Of a stretch of DNA of 46,295 nucleotides, positions 4,117 to 39,534 are shown piece by piece. Position numbers and translations under genes: made by a program. The number at the start of each line of letters is the position of its first letter. Positions within the stretch are counted from its first letter, which is position 1. The notes under the pieces were generated by a model that ran no database searches, had not been told where the DNA came from, and worked only from the letters and a program-made list of their open reading frames with translations. This DNA comes from a virus, in the IMG/VR virus record IMGVR_UViG_3300046796_000264, positions 1-46,295 of that record; one strand, given 5' to 3'.

Positions 4117-6263
4117 GCGCCAGCCGCCTCGCAATCCCGCCCGAGTTCCGCGCGGCTCGCAAGGCGGGCGACAAGGCCGCGCTCGCCGATTTTGCCCTCG
4201 AATCCGTCCGTCGCCTTCACGATGACCGCTGGTTTGCCCACGCTCACCTCTTCGCCCATCGTCACCCGGACGCCTCGGCTCGAGCGCACCGCGAGATGGT
4301 CGCCGCGATCAACCGCCCGATCCCGCGCCTCTCGATCGAGGGCTTCCGCGGCATAGGGAAAACTACGTATACCGAGGAAACCGCGCTCCTGAAGGCCGTT
4401 TTCCGCGAGTTCCACAACCTCGTCATCATCGGCCCCTCGTTCGCCCGCGCCTGCGATCGCGTCACCGCGATCCGGAACGAGATCGACACCAACCCCTACT
4501 TCGCCGAAGACGGCCTCTTCGGTAAGCTGAAGGGAGAGACCTGGGCGGACGGCAAGATCGTGCTCGGTTCAGACATCATGATCCAGGCATTGGGCCGCGA
4601 GCAGTCGATCACCGGGCTCAAGTTTCTCCAATGGCGCCCCGATGCTTTCATCATCGACGACATCGAAGACCCCGAGGAGGAGCGCACCGACGCCGAGCGC
4701 GAGAAGACCTGGCGTTGGCTGAAGCAGACGTTCCAGCCCTGCCTCGACGATGCGCTCCTGACCTGGGGCCGCTTCCTCGGCACCCGCCGGGGCAAGAACA
4801 GCCTCCCCGAACGGCTGGAAAATGACCGGATGCCGGTCGTCAAGTTCCCGATCGAGAGCCAGGACGAGAACGGCGAGCGCACCGCAACATGGCCGGCGAA
4901 GTTCCCGCTTGAGAAGATCGACACGCTGCGGGAGGATTACCGGGGCGACCTCAACCTCTACGAGCAGGAGTTCATGTGCCGCGCCTCCTCGGATGCGGCC
5001 CGCGTGTTCAAGCGCGAGATGTTCCGCTACGAGGAGCGCATCCGCACCTGGGAGGCAGTCTATGGAATGGTCGATCCCGCCCGCACCAGCCACGGCAACG
5101 CCGCAGCCACCGGCTACGCCATCTGGTCCTGGGTCAAGAACCGGCTCGTGGTGTGGGCCTCGGACGCTCTCTTCCTGGCCCCCGACGAGATCGTGGCGCT
5201 CTGCTTCGATCTTTGCGAACGGTTCGACCTGGTGCAGCTTGGCGTCGAGCGAGACGGTCTTGAGCAATTCCTCTTACAACCGCTACGCCACGAGCAGCTA
5301 AAGCGCAGTATCATGCTACCGCTGAAGCCCATCGCGGCGATCAGCGGGACGCAGGGCCGCGGCCAAACCCGATTCATCGGGGGACTGCAGCCCTATTTCC
5401 AGGCCCGGGAGGTGATCTTTGCCCAACCTTTCCCTGCCCTTGAGGCTCAACTGCTCAGCTTCCCGCACGGCATTCGCGACGCGGCAAATGCGCTTGCATA
5501 TGCGCCGACGCTGCGCCCAGCCCAGCCGATCTACGATGGCTTCGATCCCGTCAGCCACGTCGTCGAAGGCGTCGATATCGCCGCCGGCCAGCCCATCGCC
5601 CTCGCCGCCAACGCCACCGGAGGACTGACGACCGCTATCCTGGTACAGGCGTTTGAGGGCACGCTGCGCATTCTCGCCGATTGGGTCTACGAGGGATCTC
5701 CCGCCGAGCGTGTCGCCGACATCGCGCAGGCCGCCGCGCAGGTGGTCGACTCGTCTCGATTCGTGGCTGTTCCTGTGCCCCGTCCATGGGATGATATGCT
5801 CAAACTACCACTGCCGGATCGAATGCTCGCTCGACCCAACCGCCCCACCTGGATCGTCCCGCAGCACCACTCCGACCGGCACATGAATGTCGGGCTGATG
5901 CAGGCGGTGCGCGCGATCCCGAACGAGGTCCGGGTCGGCGGCACGGAAGTCGACGGCACACTCTATATAAGGGACGCGCTCGCGCGCACCGTGCGCGGGA
6001 TGCCGGTGGTCGAGGTCAGCCCCGCCGCCAGGTGGACGCTGCGGGCGCTCGCCGGCGGCTATACCCGCGGCATGATCCGGGGCCGCCTGCAAGACAGCGC
6101 CGAGGAAGGCCCCTATCGCGTGCTGATGGAGGGCATCGAAGCCTTCTGCGGCTCGATCCGCTTCGCCGCGGTGGACAACGATGAGGAGACCGCGCAAAAC
6201 TACCGCGTCGACGAGCGAAGCGGGCGGCGCTACGCGAGCGCGATGCCGATGAGGGCGCGGTGA
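4113..6263 (+). CDS. terL: Terminase large subunit with long C-terminal extension
   Basis: A 716-residue packaging motor. Walker A is EGFRGIGKTT (76-85), Walker B DAFIIDDIED (177-186), and the coupling motif FLGTR lies at 221-225, in the style of T7 gp19-like terminases. The nuclease (RNase H fold) begins near VDPARTSHGNAAATGYAIW with D321. Most relatives of this kind end near 470-600 residues. Here a further 230 residues open with GVDIAAGQPIALAAN (D488) and have the same run of strand, turn and Trp-containing strand as the first nuclease domain, so a second RNase H-like domain is possible. It cuts and pumps DNA through the portal at 6950. Confidence 0.9.
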   Translation: MSASRLAIPPEFRAARKAGDKAALADFALESVRRLHDDRWFAHAHLFAHRHPDASARAHREMVAAINRPIPRLSIEGFRGIGKTTYTEETALLKAVFREFHNLVIIGPSFARACDRVTAIRNEIDTNPYFAEDGLFGKLKGETWADGKIVLGSDIMIQALGREQSITGLKFLQWRPDAFIIDDIEDPEEERTDAEREKTWRWLKQTFQPCLDDALLTWGRFLGTRRGKNSLPERLENDRMPVVKFPIESQDENGERTATWPAKFPLEKIDTLREDYRGDLNLYEQEFMCRASSDAARVFKREMFRYEERIRTWEAVYGMVDPARTSHGNAAATGYAIWSWVKNRLVVWASDALFLAPDEIVALCFDLCERFDLVQLGVERDGLEQFLLQPLRHEQLKRSIMLPLKPIAAISGTQGRGQTRFIGGLQPYFQAREVIFAQPFPALEAQLLSFPHGIRDAANALAYAPTLRPAQPIYDGFDPVSHVVEGVDIAAGQPIALAANATGGLTTAILVQAFEGTLRILADWVYEGSPAERVADIAQAAAQVVDSSRFVAVPVPRPWDDMLKLPLPDRMLARPNRPTWIVPQHHSDRHMNVGLMQAVRAIPNEVRVGGTEVDGTLYIRDALARTVRGMPVVEVSPAARWTLRALAGGYTRGMIRGRLQDSAEEGPYRVLMEGIEAFCGSIRFAAVDNDEETAQNYRVDERSGRRYASAMPMRAR

Positions 6264-21412: not shown

Positions 21413-21730
21413 ATGAAAAACTGGCGGCACCTGGCGATTGGCGCGGCGTTGATGGCGGTAGGGGGTTTGGCTTATGCGGCGCCGATCACCGGCCCGACCG
21501 CTGGGAGTTTCCCCGACTTCGCCGCGGCGCTCAACGCGCGCTTCCTCAACTGGTTCGGCTTCGTCAGCCAGGGCGAGCTGCAACTGGTCGGTGGGCAGTC
21601 CTTCGTCGTGAACAGTAACGTGGCGACCACGCTCGGCTCAATCGGCCCCGCCGGCTCGCACACGACCGTCCAGCGCTGGCTCGTCGTTATCAACCCCGCA
21701 GGCACGGTCGGCTATATTCCGGTGTTCTGA
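21413..21730 (+). CDS. Secreted small beta protein (105 aa)
   Basis: A signal peptide (MKNWRHLAIGAALMAVGGLA, cut after AYA) leads to about 80 residues with a beta-rich end (QLQ-type GELQLVGGQSFVVNSNVAT, WLVVINPAGTVGYIPVF). GGAGG stands ahead of the ATG. It is the fourth gene of this stretch with an export signal. The last 93 bases overlap the end of the O-antigen ligase gene head to head. Confidence 0.65.
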   Translation: MKNWRHLAIGAALMAVGGLAYAAPITGPTAGSFPDFAAALNARFLNWFGFVSQGELQLVGGQSFVVNSNVATTLGSIGPAGSHTTVQRWLVVINPAGTVGYIPVF

Positions 21731-22642
21731 GGCGAGGTACGCCAGCACCGTGACGAGCAGCACGTTCGTCGCGGGGATCGAGAACAGGAACAGGCCCTGC
21801 ACGAACCATGCGGCCAGGAGGGGGCGAAATGCCGGTGTCTGGATGGACCACCCGCGCGGTACGATGCCCGACATGTGACGCCAAGCCGGGTGATCCTTGC
21901 CGTTCGATGCTTGATGACCACTATCTGCAACATGAGCATCTGGCTCGGGTCGAGCCTGAATGGCGGCGGCAATTAGAAGCCATGCGCCCGTTAGAACGCC
22001 CAACAGGCCGCTCTCGATGAACACTTCCAGCGGGATCGAGTAGAAGACATCGAGGCCGCCGATGACGAGGCCGCCCTGTCCCCAGCCGGTGACGGGGCGC
22101 AGCATCGCCGCTTGCCAGCCTAGCCGCCAGATCTCCCACCGCGCTTCGTCAACGCCGGATCGGATTGTAACAGCCGTTAATGTTGCGATGGCTGCGGCGA
22201 GAAGCGCCCACCGGGGATGCCGTCGCCATAGCATGACCAGCAGTCCCGCGCCGAGGGCGAGGAGCGCGCCGCGGCTCTGGCTGAGCGCAAGGGAGAGGAG
22301 GTTGGCCGCGACGGCTATAGGCCGGACTTCACCGACTTTATCGCCATTACGCGCTATAGCCAGGAAGAGCATTAGCACGGAATACGCCCCGAGGAAATTG
22401 GGAGATGCGAACGGGCCGCGTGCCCGAGGCAGCCACCACATCTGCACGACGGCGAGCACGGCGATGGCGACCGAGAGGGCGAGCGCCGCCGTCAGGATCC
22501 CGCGCCAGGCGCGCGGCTGCAGCAGCCTGGCGCTGAGGAACCACCCCGTCAGCAGCGCGAGACCGCCCCATTGATGCCCTGGCCCGGCCAAGTCGGCGAG
22601 GCCCACGGCGGCGGCGAAGGCGAGGAAGGCTGGCACGAGCAT
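21638..22642 (-). CDS. O-antigen ligase/polymerase family protein (Wzy_C), likely serotype converter
   Basis: A 334-residue membrane protein with about ten helices. Family marks are FASPNFLGAY (78-87), SQSRGALLAL (121-130), and EIWRLGWQAAMLRPVTGWG (170-187) followed by a periplasmic loop and FIESGLLGVLTGAW. Such enzymes join or polymerise O-antigen on lipopolysaccharide. In phages they can change the surface so that sister phages no longer bind. Residues 230-272 are a hydrophilic stretch, and the antisense strand of 208-272 is a zinc-finger gene. The last 31 residues are antisense to the gene at 21413. Ribosome site weak. Confidence 0.8.
   Translation of the reverse strand: MLVPAFLAFAAAVGLADLAGPGHQWGGLALLTGWFLSARLLQPRAWRGILTAALALSVAIAVLAVVQMWWLPRARGPFASPNFLGAYSVLMLFLAIARNGDKVGEVRPIAVAANLLSLALSQSRGALLALGAGLLVMLWRRHPRWALLAAAIATLTAVTIRSGVDEARWEIWRLGWQAAMLRPVTGWGQGGLVIGGLDVFYSIPLEVFIESGLLGVLTGAWLLIAAAIQARPEPDAHVADSGHQASNGKDHPAWRHMSGIVPRGWSIQTPAFRPLLAAWFVQGLFLFSIPATNVLLVTVLAYLASEHRNIADRACGVDNDEPALDGRVRAGGAD
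21829..22020 (+). CDS. Zinc-finger protein nested antisense in the O-antigen ligase gene
   Basis: A 63-residue protein with the motif RCPTCDAKPGDPC (C13, C16, C24) and then His residues (H31, H35, H37) before LARV. This CPxCxAxxGxxC...HxxR pattern is a widespread small zinc-binding module in phage and actinobacterial proteins. AGGAGGGGG (21816-21824) stands four bases ahead of the ATG, one of the best ribosome sites in the window. The gene lies wholly inside the minus-strand ligase gene. Motif plus ribosome site argue that it is real. Confidence 0.7.
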   Translation: MPVSGWTTRAVRCPTCDAKPGDPCRSMLDDHYLQHEHLARVEPEWRRQLEAMRPLERPTGRSR

Positions 22643-22901: not shown

Positions 22902-23227
22902 GCGATCTCCCCCCCGATGTCGTGACCGTCAATCTCCGCTTCGGGGTGATGACGACACTCGGCCTCTACCAAGATACGCTCAGCTTTTCCGAGGACGAAT
23001 GGGCGAAGCGTGACCCTGATGCGATAGCCAAGGCAAAGCAGCAACTTGCCGATACGTGGGTGGCGTTCCGTACACCGCAGATCGCCGAGGAGCAGGCTCT
23101 TGCTACGCAGGCAGGTGTCGACGCCAAGATCGCAGAATACCAGCAGCAGATAGCGGACCTGCAGGCGGCCGTGGTTGACCTCCAAGCGACGGCGGTGACA
23201 GCGGCGGCTCCGCTCTCGGTTGCCTAG
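22898..23227 (+). CDS. Helical protein of unknown function (109 aa)
   Basis: GTG start overlapping the previous stop. A short beta front (VVTVNLRFGVMTTLGLYQDT) leads to helices and a C-terminal coiled coil (KIAEYQQQIADLQAAVVDLQ). Proteins with this layout act as fibre chaperones or connectors in some phages, and the next two genes are tail proteins. No family is recognised. Confidence 0.65.
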   Translation: MSDLPPDVVTVNLRFGVMTTLGLYQDTLSFSEDEWAKRDPDAIAKAKQQLADTWVAFRTPQIAEEQALATQAGVDAKIAEYQQQIADLQAAVVDLQATAVTAAAPLSVA

Positions 23228-23228
23228 G

Positions 23229-24470
23229 ATGCAGATCCTTACGCCAACCGGCTATCGGGATATCACCGATTGTGTGGTTGGCGACGAGATAAGCGCCTTC
23301 GATACCGCAACCGGCGCCCCGATCATCAATACGATTGAGTTGATCCAACAAATCAACGAGGCAGAGTACGATCGCTGGTGGAACGGGCAGATCCAGAAGG
23401 CAGACTTCCCTTGGCGTTTCTTGCTCATCAACGGTATCTGGACCCTCAATTCCGAGCAATCAATTTGGCGTGCGACCCCAGATGGAGCAAATATCTGTCA
23501 CGTCCGCGATCTGATCCTCGGAGATACGATCTACGATGACGCTGATCGCGATGTCCTCATCGAGAAGATTGATGAGGTTTCTGTGCCGTTTTGGTGGCGA
23601 CTGGAGATCAGCGGCGACCACTCGTATATTGCCGATGGATTATTACTCCATAATGCCTCTCGGTTTTGGGTCTTAGGAACGGGCGGTTGGGATACTATTA
23701 CAACAACGCATTGGGCGACAACCTCGGGTGCCGGATCCGGCGGAGCGTCAGTTCCAGGCGTATCCGATTCGGCCACATTTGATGGTGGCTCCGGCGGTGG
23801 CACTGTTACGCTAAATCAAACTTTAGGCATTACTGTTCAGTCGATCACCTGTGGAGCGTTCACCGGGACATTGGATAATAGCACAAACAATAATAACGTT
23901 ACGCTTAGTTCCAGTTTTAACGGTTCCGGAACAGGTACGAGAACCATAAATCTAGGAAATGGCACATGGAATATAACAAGCACGACGGGTGCTACAACCT
24001 GGAATATGAACATCACTACCGGTTTGACCTGGAACGCGAATAGTTCGACCATTCAAATATCGGGTGCAACAACGACGGCCTTGCGCATCTTCACCGGAGG
24101 CAGCTTGGCCTACCATGATATACAATTGACTGGTCTTATATCTATTACGGGCACAAATAGCTTTACGGCATTTTCACTTGTCGGGGCCGCTCAAGTTACT
24201 CTCACTAACACGCAAACAGTGACTTCTTTAGTATCTAATGGCACGGTCTCAGCGCCTAATTCTATTAACAATGCCGGCGCAAATGCCGTCGCTACAATCA
24301 GCATTATAAGTGGAACTTATGATTTGACCTGGACCGGAATTTCGGGAATAACATTTTCCGGTGGCGCTACGTTTACCGCTCATAACTCATTCGATCTTGG
24401 GCACAACAGCGGCATTACAATCACCCCGCCGACCATGACCCGCTCGCGCGGCTGGTCGGGGATGGCATAG
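23229..24470 (+). CDS. Tail protein with N-terminal Hint (intein-like) domain
   Basis: A 413-residue protein. Residues 1-142 form a Hint domain: block A-like MQILTPTGYRDITDCVVGDE, then SEQSIW and CHVRDLILGDTIYDD, and the C-terminal block GDHSYIADGLLLHN ending H141-N142, directly before A143. The nucleophile normally at position 1 (Cys/Ser) is replaced by the start Met, so only C-terminal Asn cleavage seems possible; that would free the tail part. Residues 143-413 are Thr/Ser/Gly/Asn-rich (beta-solenoid-like) and AT-richer. The ATG lies one base after the previous stop. Confidence 0.75.
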   Translation: MQILTPTGYRDITDCVVGDEISAFDTATGAPIINTIELIQQINEAEYDRWWNGQIQKADFPWRFLLINGIWTLNSEQSIWRATPDGANICHVRDLILGDTIYDDADRDVLIEKIDEVSVPFWWRLEISGDHSYIADGLLLHNASRFWVLGTGGWDTITTTHWATTSGAGSGGASVPGVSDSATFDGGSGGGTVTLNQTLGITVQSITCGAFTGTLDNSTNNNNVTLSSSFNGSGTGTRTINLGNGTWNITSTTGATTWNMNITTGLTWNANSSTIQISGATTTALRIFTGGSLAYHDIQLTGLISITGTNSFTAFSLVGAAQVTLTNTQTVTSLVSNGTVSAPNSINNAGANAVATISIISGTYDLTWTGISGITFSGGATFTAHNSFDLGHNSGITITPPTMTRSRGWSGMA

Positions 24471-31925: not shown

Positions 31926-33581
31926 ATGTCCGATCTTCCGGCCGAAAACCCATACGCGAAGTTCAAGCCCGCGCAAGCGTCGGACAACCCCTATGCGAAA
32001 TTCGCTCCCGCCGGTTCATCGGGGGCGGCGGCACCCGCGCCAGCCGCGCAGCCTTCGCTCATCGAATCCATGTGGAACACCGTGAAGGGTGTGGGCGGCG
32101 CTCCCGCCCGGTTCGGGCAGGGCGTGGCCGAGGGCGCGGTCGGTATGGGCATCCCCGAGGGTCCCGCGTCGCAGCTTGAGGGCGGCCCCGCGCGCTTCGC
32201 CGGGCGAGCGATTGGCACCGGGGGCAAGAGCCTCATCGAAAGCATGTGGGACACCGTGAAGGCCCCGGGCCAGATGTTGAGGGGCGAGATGCAACCTGGG
32301 CCGCAGGCCGAGCAGGCGGCGCGCGGGATGGCGCTGGGGATCGCGGGCGCTGGCGGGGGCTTCCGTCCCGGCATGGGTACGTCGATGATGAGACCTGCCG
32401 TTACGCCTGCGCCGGGCATTCCTCCGGTCGGTGGGGGAACAAGGCTTGCCACGGTACAGATGCCTACAGGAGCGGCGCGCACGGTGCAATCGCGGCCGCT
32501 GACACAGGAGCAGATGCCGCCGGTCGAGCCTACCGCGGCGTCTGCGGAAACCTCCGCGCTGGGCGATGCGATTGCTGCGAACAATCCAGGCGCTGTCGAC
32601 TCGTACATCACGAAGCGATACCGGAGCGTCGTCAAGCCTCCGCCGGGAACGGCCAAGGGAGAAACAGGGCTCGCGCAGCAAGACCAGCGCATCTTGACGA
32701 CGGTTGACCAGATCATCGCCAACAAGGATGCGCTCAGGCTGACCGATGCGATACCCGGGCAGCTTCCTCGTAGCCTACGGCAGTTTTCCGAGGCGGTCGA
32801 CCAGACCAAGAAATCGCTGTTCCAGAAGTATGACGCAATGGCCCAGCAATCGGGCGATGTGGGCGTGCAGGTCGATCTCGCTCCGGTTATATCCGAACTG
32901 CGCAGCATCGGCACACGGCCCGAGGTGGTCGACCTTCACCCCGAGCTGATCCCGCAGGCCGAGCAGCTTGCACGTAATTTCGAGGCGCGAGGCTTCTACT
33001 CGCCATCGGCGGCGCAGGATGCCATCGAGAACCTGAACCGAACCCTCTCTGCCTTCTACAAGAACCCGACCGAGCAGACTGTTGGGCGGGCCAATCTCCT
33101 CGCCCCGGTGGCGCGCATCCTGCGCTCGCAACTGGACGAAGCGATCGGAGAGGCGCAAGGCCCCGGCTACCAGGCGCTGCGCTTACAGTACGGGGCGCTT
33201 GCGTCGGTCGAAAAGGATGTGGCGAGGGCGGTGCAGCGCGAGGCCAACAAGATTCCGGGGGGGCTCGCCGGCACGTTTGCCGACATGGCCGCGTCCGAGG
33301 AGGCTATTCGCGGCGTCCTGACACTGAATCCCGCGGCGCTGGCGCGTGCAGGCGGGATCAGGGCCGCCAAGTCGGCCATCAAATACATCTACGATCCCAA
33401 TCGTGCGATCGAGCGCATGTTCGCGCGCCGTGCCGCGCCGCAGGTGCCACCTGCGCCACTCGCCGCGCCTGTAGCGCAAGCTGGGGGCATTGGTGCGGGG
33501 GCGGGCATGGCCGGCGGCGGCTTCCCGCAGCCGAAGCGCGATCCCGACCAGCCGCTCCAGCGCAGCATAGGCCAGTTCTAG
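31926..33581 (+). CDS. Internal (ejection) protein with repeated NPYAKF motif (551 aa)
   Basis: The front holds NPYAKFKPA and NPYAKFAPA, then two copies of SLIESMWNTVKG / SLIESMWDTVKA, so a short unit was duplicated. NPYAKF is a known opening of large ejection proteins in short-tailed phages. Helices fill 220-480 (TVDQIIANKDALRL, NEVR-like runs), and the end is Pro/Gly-rich. It starts right after the previous stop. The function is inferred from build and place. Confidence 0.65.
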   Translation: MSDLPAENPYAKFKPAQASDNPYAKFAPAGSSGAAAPAPAAQPSLIESMWNTVKGVGGAPARFGQGVAEGAVGMGIPEGPASQLEGGPARFAGRAIGTGGKSLIESMWDTVKAPGQMLRGEMQPGPQAEQAARGMALGIAGAGGGFRPGMGTSMMRPAVTPAPGIPPVGGGTRLATVQMPTGAARTVQSRPLTQEQMPPVEPTAASAETSALGDAIAANNPGAVDSYITKRYRSVVKPPPGTAKGETGLAQQDQRILTTVDQIIANKDALRLTDAIPGQLPRSLRQFSEAVDQTKKSLFQKYDAMAQQSGDVGVQVDLAPVISELRSIGTRPEVVDLHPELIPQAEQLARNFEARGFYSPSAAQDAIENLNRTLSAFYKNPTEQTVGRANLLAPVARILRSQLDEAIGEAQGPGYQALRLQYGALASVEKDVARAVQREANKIPGGLAGTFADMAASEEAIRGVLTLNPAALARAGGIRAAKSAIKYIYDPNRAIERMFARRAAPQVPPAPLAAPVAQAGGIGAGAGMAGGGFPQPKRDPDQPLQRSIGQF

Positions 33582-34870
33582 TGCGTTTGCTTTGTATCGA
33601 GGACACGGCGGACGGCCTCCTCGACCTCGCCATGATCGCCCAGCGCAACGGGCACGATGTCAAATACTACATGCGTGCCTACGATGAGGAGAAAGCGCCG
33701 GTTGGGCGCCGTCTCGTTGGCCGTGTTGCGGATTGGCGGCAGCACATGCGCTGGTGCGATCTCGTCGTCGTCGGCGGAAACGGCAAATGGATGCGCGAGA
33801 TCGACGCCTTACGCGCGCAGGGCGTGCCGATCATCGGCGGCTGCGCCGAGGCGGCGGCGTGGGAACTTGACCGTATGGCGGGCATGGCGGCGTTCAAACG
33901 CGCCGGCATCCCGGTCCCGCCGTTCCGCCAGTGCGGCACGCTCAAGGAGGCGATGGAGTACGTCGAGAAGCGCGACGAAGGGTGCGCCGTCAAGCCCTGC
34001 GGCGACATCGCCGACAAGGCAACCAGCGTCGTTGGCAAGGATGCGCGCACGATCCTGTGGCGCCTCGACCGCTGGCGCCGGGAGGGCAAGAGCTTCCCCG
34101 GCGGCCTCATGGTGCAGGACAAGATCGACGGCGTGGAGTTTGCGGTTGGAGCATGGATCGGGCCTGACGGGTTCGCGCCGGGGTGGGAGATCAATGCCGA
34201 GGAAAAGGCTCTGTTCGCCGGCAACCTTGGGCCGGCCACGGGAGAGCAGGGCACGACCATGATGCTCGTGAAGTCGGAGAAGATGGCCGACCTGGTGCTT
34301 AAGCCCTTCGAGGACCGTCTTGTCTCGATGGGCTACTGCGGCAACGTGGACGTGAACTGTATCGTCGACGAGGACGGGACACCCTGGCCGCTCGAGTTCA
34401 CGATGCGCCTCGGGTGGCCCGCGTTCAATATCGAGCCGGCGCTACACTCGGGCGACATTGTGGAGTTCCTGGCCGGGCTCGCCGAGGGCAGGCCGCCCAA
34501 CACGCGGCGGATGAACGAGGTCGCGGTCGGGGTGGTGATCTCGCTGCCACCGTACCCGCATAGCCATGCGAAGACCGAGGAGGTCGTCGGGGTGCCGATC
34601 TGGGGCATGGTGCCGAGCATCGAGGACCGGGTGCATCTCGTGGCGGCGCAGATGGAGAAGGGACAGCTTGCGACCGCCGGCGATTACGTCTGTGTGACGA
34701 CGGGCGTTGGGGACACGGTGCAGGCAGCCCGCAACGCCGTCTACCGCACGGCGCAGCGGCTACAGTTCCCGATCAAGCCGCAAATGCGCATTGATATCGG
34801 CCAGCGGCTCAGCCGCGATCTGGATCGGCTACAGACGCATGGGTTTGCGAAGGGGATGTCCTACGCTTGA
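33581..34870 (+). CDS. PurD-like ATP-grasp protein (429 aa)
   Basis: A GTG start overlaps the previous stop (TAGTG). The order of motifs follows glycinamide ribonucleotide synthetase (PurD): an N-terminal nucleotide-like fold (LLCIEDTADGLLDLAMIAQR), KRAGIPVPPF, CAVKPCGDIADK with K138, VQDKIDGVEFAVGAWIG, and GNVDVNCIVDEDG leading to LEFTMRLGWP. In true PurD the last motif is EFN-x-RFGDPE; here Asn is Thr (T273) and DPE is WPA, so the substrate may differ. It could ligate an amine to a carboxylate in nucleotide or peptide form. It is the last gene of the late operon. Confidence 0.75.
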   Translation: MRLLCIEDTADGLLDLAMIAQRNGHDVKYYMRAYDEEKAPVGRRLVGRVADWRQHMRWCDLVVVGGNGKWMREIDALRAQGVPIIGGCAEAAAWELDRMAGMAAFKRAGIPVPPFRQCGTLKEAMEYVEKRDEGCAVKPCGDIADKATSVVGKDARTILWRLDRWRREGKSFPGGLMVQDKIDGVEFAVGAWIGPDGFAPGWEINAEEKALFAGNLGPATGEQGTTMMLVKSEKMADLVLKPFEDRLVSMGYCGNVDVNCIVDEDGTPWPLEFTMRLGWPAFNIEPALHSGDIVEFLAGLAEGRPPNTRRMNEVAVGVVISLPPYPHSHAKTEEVVGVPIWGMVPSIEDRVHLVAAQMEKGQLATAGDYVCVTTGVGDTVQAARNAVYRTAQRLQFPIKPQMRIDIGQRLSRDLDRLQTHGFAKGMSYA

Positions 34871-38127: not shown

Positions 38128-38373
38128 CTACCACCTCTGGAGGTCGGCGGGCAGCGGATCATAATGCTTTTCAGTACTCCACGAACCGTTACGCCAGCGC
38201 CAGTAGCGGCGGCCATGATTGCCCACCAATAGGACGCGCTCAACCTCTGCCTGCGAATGTCCACGTGCGCGCAAGCCCACAACCGCTCGTTTTGCTTTGA
38301 CGATTGACCTCGGACCACTGGGCCAGAAAACAATAGCGCCCTCGACAGGTTGATAGAGATACGCGCTCATCAT
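38128..38373 (-). CDS. Small protein of unknown function (81 aa)
   Basis: An 81-residue protein (MMSAYLYQPVEGAIVFWPSG) with a central helix-turn-helix-like stretch (GLRARGHSQAEVERVLLVG) and a Trp-rich end (RRYWRWRNGSW). ATGATG start, overlapping the Rad52-like stop by 4 bp. It might bind DNA; no family is certain. Confidence 0.6.
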   Translation of the reverse strand: MMSAYLYQPVEGAIVFWPSGPRSIVKAKRAVVGLRARGHSQAEVERVLLVGNHGRRYWRWRNGSWSTEKHYDPLPADLQRW

Positions 38374-39092
38374 CCCGTCGCTCCATAAAGCTCGCCCTTG
38401 AGTCTGGCGGACAGCGCCATGATGGCGTCGAGCGATGGCTCGTGGACTTCTTTTATGAGCGCCAGATCCTTCGTGGCGCGCTCGATCACCTCGTCGATGA
38501 TCGCAGGCGTGCGCGCGACACCCAGCGCCTCGGTTATGCGCTTGCGGGCCTCGCGTGCGGCCAGCACCTTGCGCTCGCGCTCGGTCGGGTGCGCCGCGGC
38601 CTCAGGGGTTCTTGGGCGCGAGGCGACTGGCTCGACCTCGGCCTGTGTCTTGTCGTAGAGGGCGAGGCCGAAGGGATTGCCGAAGGTCATCAGACTGCGC
38701 TTTAGGGCATCTGTCTCACATTCTTTCGCCGCGCTCTCGTGCGCCTCGCCGATGTCAGCGTCGATGCCGGAACCATAGCCGGTGCCCTCACGGACGATGA
38801 CGCACTCGCCGGCCCTTACCGTGACCCGCACCTTTCCAACGTAGGAGACGCGGAAGCCGGGCTTCTCGTATTGACCGCCAGCGCCGATGATGCAGGGCTT
38901 TTCCGAGACGCAGCGGCATTCGATGGTCTCGCGGTCCCAGCCATCAAAACCGAATATCCGGTTGGCTTCGGCGATGGCTACCCACCCTTCCAGATATGAG
39001 AGGGTCCGACCTGCCTGAGTACGTGTCTTAACGTGGTCTCTGGATAGGGGGGCGCGGAGCAACGAGAGTTGTTGCTCGTCAAATCCTGGCAT
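38370..39092 (-). CDS. Rad52-type single-strand annealing protein
   Basis: A 240-residue protein. The Rad52/Rad22 core is plain: APLSRDHVKTR, RTLSYLEGWVAIAEANRIFG (29-48), then FDGWDRETIEC, YVGKVRVTVRAGE (84-96), GTGYGSG (103-109) and HESAAKECETDALKRSLMTF (118-137). Such proteins anneal single strands in phage recombination and replication. The C-terminal 90 residues are helical and may bind partners. AGGAAGAAG precedes the ATG at 39092. An HNH gene lies just upstream, overlaps the start by 14 bp, and may have replaced the original first codons. Confidence 0.88.
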   Translation of the reverse strand: MPGFDEQQLSLLRAPLSRDHVKTRTQAGRTLSYLEGWVAIAEANRIFGFDGWDRETIECRCVSEKPCIIGAGGQYEKPGFRVSYVGKVRVTVRAGECVIVREGTGYGSGIDADIGEAHESAAKECETDALKRSLMTFGNPFGLALYDKTQAEVEPVASRPRTPEAAAHPTERERKVLAAREARKRITEALGVARTPAIIDEVIERATKDLALIKEVHEPSLDAIMALSARLKGELYGATG

Positions 39093-39534
39093 GAGACTTC
39101 TTCCTTTCTCGATATTTGGCTTGTCTAACATGCAGACATTCCCGGCATTGCCGATGGCCCTGTGTGTCGATATACATAAATGTCGCCAAAAGATGACCAT
39201 GTGAACAATGTGCGCGAGGCGGACGCAAGGCGCTTATTGCGCCCCTAAGCGTATTCTCGCGATTGGTTACTGGTTCTAAATGAGAGGGGTTGACACAAAA
39301 ACTATTCCGGCACAGATGGTCAATTTGTAATCCTTCTGGTATTGGCCCTTGCGCGAGTTCATATGCGAGGCGGTGAGCATAAATGCGCATTCCCTTCTGA
39401 AAAAACATAACTCCATATCCTCGCCCGTTAGTCGCTCCTATCCATATCCAACATCCGCTATTAGGTTCTGGAATATATTTTTCCTCGAACCTTTGTAAGA
39501 GAGGTTTAAATATATGACCCCTATGAAGGCTCAC
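39079..39534 (-). CDS. HNH endonuclease (HNH_3 type), homing-like
   Basis: A 151-residue protein from a GTG at 39534, with GAGGAG ahead. It has the short HNH_3 pattern: SGCWIWIGATNGRGYGVMFF, IYAHRLAYELAQG, then LQIDHLCRNSFCVNPSHLEP, where DHLCRN and CVNPSHLE carry the catalytic and zinc-binding His and Cys. The gene is much richer in A and T than its neighbours, a sign of recent arrival. Its start overlaps the stop of an 18-codon stub, and its end overlaps the Rad52 start. Confidence 0.85.
   Translation of the reverse strand: MSLHRGHIFKPLLQRFEEKYIPEPNSGCWIWIGATNGRGYGVMFFQKGMRIYAHRLAYELAQGPIPEGLQIDHLCRNSFCVNPSHLEPVTNRENTLRGAISALRPPRAHCSHGHLLATFMYIDTQGHRQCRECLHVRQAKYRERKKSHARI

Follow-up and report, generated by a model that had tools for sequence, protein, structure and literature searches.

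Arrangement of genes at the locus

The window analysed here, a virus record of 46,295 bases taken at its full length, carries genes for a terminase, a major head protein and a tail-type transglycosylase and belongs to a soil phage. Amid the plus-strand structural genes lies a single locus at which a minus-strand membrane protein gene, referred to below as the ligase, is overlapped from the opposite strand by a short open reading frame (ORF) for a zinc-finger protein. The features of this locus are as follows.

21413–21730, plus strand: gene for a secreted-type protein of 105 residues; convergent with the ligase gene, whose 3′ end it overlaps by 93 bases
21638–22642, minus strand: Wzy_C-like membrane protein (ligase) of 334 residues, defined by its ORF and profile matches
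21816–21824, plus strand: AGGAGGGGG, Shine-Dalgarno-like, four bases 5′ of the zinc ATG; antisense of the ligase R-P-L-L codons (R-P-F-L or similar in relatives)
21820–22006, no strand assigned: block without DNA match to alleles L002 and L004, a probable recombination patch; flanks about 94–95% identical
21827–21964, minus strand: inserted ligase loop (residues 227–272) as delimited by alignment, antisense of the zinc core
21829–22020, plus strand: zinc-finger ORF of 63 residues, PF24623 family
21865–21939, plus strand: zinc-ligand region, with C13 (21865–21867), C16 (21874–21876), C24 (21898–21900) and H37 (21937–21939)
21965–22017, plus strand: C-terminal tail of the zinc ORF, antisense of a conserved ligase helix; its TGA end is common, in frame, to L002, L004, L007 and G016

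As the initial annotation had proposed, the zinc ORF is nested antisense in the minus-strand ORF, within which every one of its bases falls; it is a complete ORF with a ribosome-binding site inside another coding gene. Its translation is MPVSGWTTRAVRCPTCDAKPGDPCRSMLDDHYLQHEHLARVEPEWRRQLEAMRPLERPTGRSR*. The zinc motif seen earlier was borne out in a profile search, in which residues 8–43 matched the Pfam family PF24623 (Phage_zn_bind_8) with 31.3 bits against a cut-off of 24 (E = 1.7e-7). With 24,736 models searched against a few hundred ORFs, an E value of this size means that the match is not due to chance; when the whole record was searched in six read-through frames, the same site scored 20.9 bits (E = 1e-5), under the family cut-off. 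We take PF24623 to be a putative DNA-binding zinc finger of phages, belonging with their small zinc-finger proteins, and a literature search for the family returned no mention of it. The ligands of the CxxC...C...H pattern (Cys13, Cys16, Cys24 and His37) are invariant in both alignments used (A3 and A4). Two independent relatives of the zinc protein, L008 and L020, score above the PF24623 cut-off and have CPTCDAKPG..C and HxxR in common. The zinc ORF is thus like other members of the family in its CPxC...C...HxxR core, above-cut-off score and small size, and differs from them in that its last ~18 residues are read from antisense ligase DNA and in that no close homolog was found, the best being 44% over 34 residues. 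A third candidate relative, L019, was dropped because no matching plus-strand ORF was listed for it, and matches to plasmids were set aside as weak. The codon usage of the zinc ORF is poor for this phage (GC3 of 0.55 vs 0.80 for the phage genes). AlphaFold models of both proteins were too weak for testing the fold, with a pLDDT of 58 for the zinc protein and 39 for the ligase.

The name of O-antigen ligase first given to the minus-strand gene could be kept only in part: the product is a Wzy_C-like membrane protein, and its assignment to that family is sub-threshold. Residues 110–217 match PF04932 (Wzy_C) with 18.9 bits against a cut-off of 31.7, and the same region matches weakly in the three ligase relatives that were scanned (16.2–24.1 bits, the best being L007 at 24.1), all below the cut-off. 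The gene also differs from the O-antigen ligase family in being phage-borne, on the minus strand among plus-strand structural genes. A further match to IctB at residues 201–231 is short and far sub-threshold, and a sequence search of the PDB with the ligase gave no match.

Elsewhere in the window, an ATP-grasp gene resembling PurD/GARS (33581–34870, plus strand) matches PF02843 with 37.7 bits (cut-off 34.8) and TIGR00877 with 87 bits, below the cut-off of 288. The N-terminal part of the product of 23220–24470 (plus strand), which ends in LLLHNA, looks Hint/intein-like by eye and has no match in Pfam.

Ligase alleles and the origin of the loop

A search of viral contigs with the ligase returned six contigs carrying three distinct alleles (L002, L004 and L007). 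The records of 40 loci found with the major head protein added four more alleles (G015, which is partial, G016, G017 and G021), and neither the phage record collection nor the genome contigs yielded a ligase relative. None of these seven alleles contains the zinc gene, and the arrangement is carried by one contig only. Between the helices ‘...WLLIAA’ and ‘FLAAWFVQ’, six of the seven have a segment of 7–13 residues and the seventh, L002, has 29 residues of unrelated sequence; the window has 48. In 14 control genomes PF24623 never scored above its cut-off, 35 further related phage records had no match to it at E ≤ 0.1, and it was not found among 41 related records, some of which are fragments. 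By parsimony, the short loop is well supported as the ancestral state, with the zinc gene as a derived insertion. The short loop of six alleles and the absence of the zinc gene and of PF24623 from the relatives together indicate that the zinc gene was inserted and that the ligase loop results from reading it in antisense; on these comparisons, insertion in antisense at a variable ligase loop is well supported as the origin of the arrangement. The same alleles agree with two earlier suggestions, namely that the zinc motif lies opposite a loop that the ligase can do without and that this loop arose as antisense of the zinc gene. The opposite proposal, a resident gene onto which the ligase arrived later, is not supported, the ligase being the older resident.

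Zinc codon positions 1, 2 and 3 stand opposite ligase positions 1, 3 and 2. All four zinc ligands lie opposite ligase residues 235–260, within the inserted loop, so that the conserved zinc core faces new loop sequence only; conserved ligase residues are found opposite only the last ~18 zinc codons. The view of the locus as sense–antisense coding of two recognisable proteins therefore holds insofar as the zinc tail, which is not conserved, lies opposite a conserved helix, and does not hold for the zinc domain, which faces a lineage-specific loop.

We propose that a small stand-alone phage gene of the PF24623 family entered, in antisense, at a short variable loop between two transmembrane helices, which by analogy with such proteins is probably on the cytoplasmic side. 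The added length was a multiple of three and its backward frame free of stops, so that the membrane protein would survive with a longer loop in which the zinc gene is read backwards; the zinc ORF terminates at a TGA that pre-existed opposite the ligase helix. A seven-base word, CCATGCG, flanks the insert on both sides (21806–21812 and 21980–21986) in the antisense of two conserved ligase Trp regions, and these repeats are possible microhomology for the insertion.

The DNA match to L002 and L004 ends at about 21820 and resumes at 22007, leaving a block of about the extent of the zinc ORF, the right end of which still codes for the conserved ligase helix GLLGVLTGAWLLIAA. At ligase residues 212–226, dS is 1.6–1.8 and dN 0.25–0.31 relative to L002 and L004. 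Most stretches of the flanking ligase have a dS of 0.06–0.14 against the same alleles, the exception being residues 114–211 in the comparison with L004, where dS is also raised (0.54). No sampled allele is close to the ligase-derived end of the patch (best L007, with 29 of 42 bases). The strong divergence of this end (dS about 1.7 vs about 0.06–0.14) makes recombination from an unsampled phage probable, and the patch probably derives from a diverged ligase allele of such a phage. The allele would then have reached this phage as a patch of ~190 bp, by recombination with an unsampled relative. The window also encodes a Rad52/Rad22-family protein (38370–39200, minus strand; PF04098, 119 bits), and this might be relevant to the mosaic structure of the ligase alleles.

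Two further readings opposite variable ligase segments were considered as nested genes. The L002 loop holds a different insert (L002 positions 5637–5766), the antisense of which is a membrane-like ORF of 29 residues (MTAFYYLGIGLGFIGIMLGLCGLAGGFKK) preceded by GAGGAAGG; it has neither relatives nor a family match and was rejected as a second nested gene. In its phase, codon position 2 stands opposite position 2, so that a hydrophilic loop yields a hydrophobic antisense almost automatically. The second variable site of the ligase, at residues 95–113 (about 22300–22360 in the window), has a longer unrelated segment in L004, and the antisense reading opposite it gave no family match.

At the 3′ end of the ligase, in the 93-base overlap with the 105-residue gene, L002 and L004 each show four differences from the window, and every one of these is synonymous for the plus-strand gene and alters the ligase; in L007 the ligase ends in a different tail. 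Because the differences are silent in the one gene and ligase-changing in the other, the ligase end is a passive antisense of the plus-strand gene, and the zinc loop would be a second passive antisense segment of the same protein.

Possible translation of the two frames

In agreement with the initial annotation, a Shine-Dalgarno (SD) sequence ends four bases before the zinc ATG. Its core is a perfect AGGAGG, seven bases before the start codon; at a spacing of 4–9, AGGAGG precedes 9 of the 1361 ATGs in the window. Each of the other seven alleles has GAGGAA at this point of the plus strand, owing to the Phe-Leu that the ligase retains ahead of Ala/Thr-Ala-Trp, and the presence of GAGGAA in alleles that lack the zinc gene means that most of the SD predates that gene. 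The window alone reads CTC CTG where TTC CTC would be expected, a change that creates AGGAGG and replaces the Phe of the seven other alleles by Leu. This F-to-L change, though a single case, is the best sign that the zinc ORF may be translated, and we regard it as a hint. The purine-rich antisense copy of conserved ligase codons would then act as the SD directly ahead of the zinc ORF. A search for sigma-70 promoters gave no match near the zinc gene or the ligase. Most likely, the plus-strand transcript that carries the structural genes would also yield the zinc protein, which might bind DNA or protein, while the membrane protein would be made from the minus strand, probably at another stage.

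The reading that we prefer combines antisense insertion into the variable loop, AGGAGG as a working SD, arrival of the patch by recombination and translation of both frames; taken as a whole, we hold it to be about as probable as not. That both proteins are made is plausible, with the chances about evenly balanced.

The main rival holds that the zinc-gene fragment is a fossil serving as filler of the ligase loop, that only the ligase is made, and that the recency of the event explains why the zinc ORF is still intact. This is possible, if rather doubtful. It would account for a zinc tail that is ligase antisense and not the protein's own C-terminus, for a GC3 untypical of the phage and for a GAGGAA stretch older than the insert, and L002 demonstrates that the same loop tolerates another insert. 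Both frames also stay open by chance often enough: when the zinc residues were recoded with the codon usage of the phage, the ligase frame was open in 55% of cases, and when ligase residues 212–226 were recoded, the zinc frame was open in 22%. Openness alone is therefore no proof of selection in either frame, and the open ligase frame was rejected as a sign of it. Speaking against it, the ORF has its own ATG right after a perfect SD and all of its zinc ligands intact, and that SD was completed through replacement of an otherwise invariant ligase phenylalanine.

The recoding result has a second use, since a ligase frame that remains open in 55% of recodings could also be open by chance in a gene that no longer works. 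The zinc gene would then be functional and the ligase, with 48 residues between its helices, would not, an explanation that we consider improbable. The inserted segment is indeed far longer than in any other allele, and the adjoining ligase position 275 has changed from F to L. Nevertheless, the ligase frame is free of stops and the helices are kept on both sides. Between the window and L002, ligase residues 1–211 have 17 synonymous and 8 nonsynonymous changes (two stretches counted), and the diverged patch keeps the ligase amino acids even though its silent sites are saturated. Judged from these substitutions, the ligase frame is under constraint. An assembly error, or a motif that arose by chance in antisense DNA, is very improbable. 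The block occurs on a single contig and its six-frame read-through score is under the cut-off, but the match of the ORF to the profile lies well outside what chance would give. Both edges of the block are continuous with the ligase reading frame, and ligase sequence, diverged but recognisable, is still present at the right-hand one, as would hardly be expected of a chimeric join.

Relation to known antisense genes

Overlapping genes are usually explained by overprinting, the emergence of a new ORF inside an older gene. For the present locus, a different history has somewhat less than an even chance of being right, in which a gene of a known family entered the antisense strand of the loop and both proteins came to be made, giving a dual-coding pair in one step.

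Nested antisense genes as such are already known. Those of bacteria, reviewed in PMC7457138, include nog1, asa, laoB, ano and aatS and are described there as typically young relative to the host gene. As in our window, each is a small ORF lying wholly antisense in a longer gene, and aatS, like the zinc ORF, has homologs elsewhere and a conserved domain (PMC7457138). What sets the window apart from these cases is an embedded gene from an existing family that came in by insertion and was left within a host gene that is read through it. Among phages, olg1 and olg2 of Pseudomonas phage Fc02 lie antisense to gene 10, overlap on opposite strands as the window genes do, are expressed at different stages and function in superinfection exclusion; the excerpt of PMC9936078 reports neither a zinc finger nor an insertion origin for them. 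Less usual in the present case are an ORF from an established family, an origin by insertion and the pre-insertion alleles at hand.

The locus would be a polarised example of another route to overlapping genes, in which an immigrant gene of a known family lands, and the host gene stays open and absorbs an antisense loop. With seven insert-free alleles available, both halves of this route are directly testable. More broadly, the ligase gene illustrates how tolerant segments of a protein may be backward copies of a neighbour.
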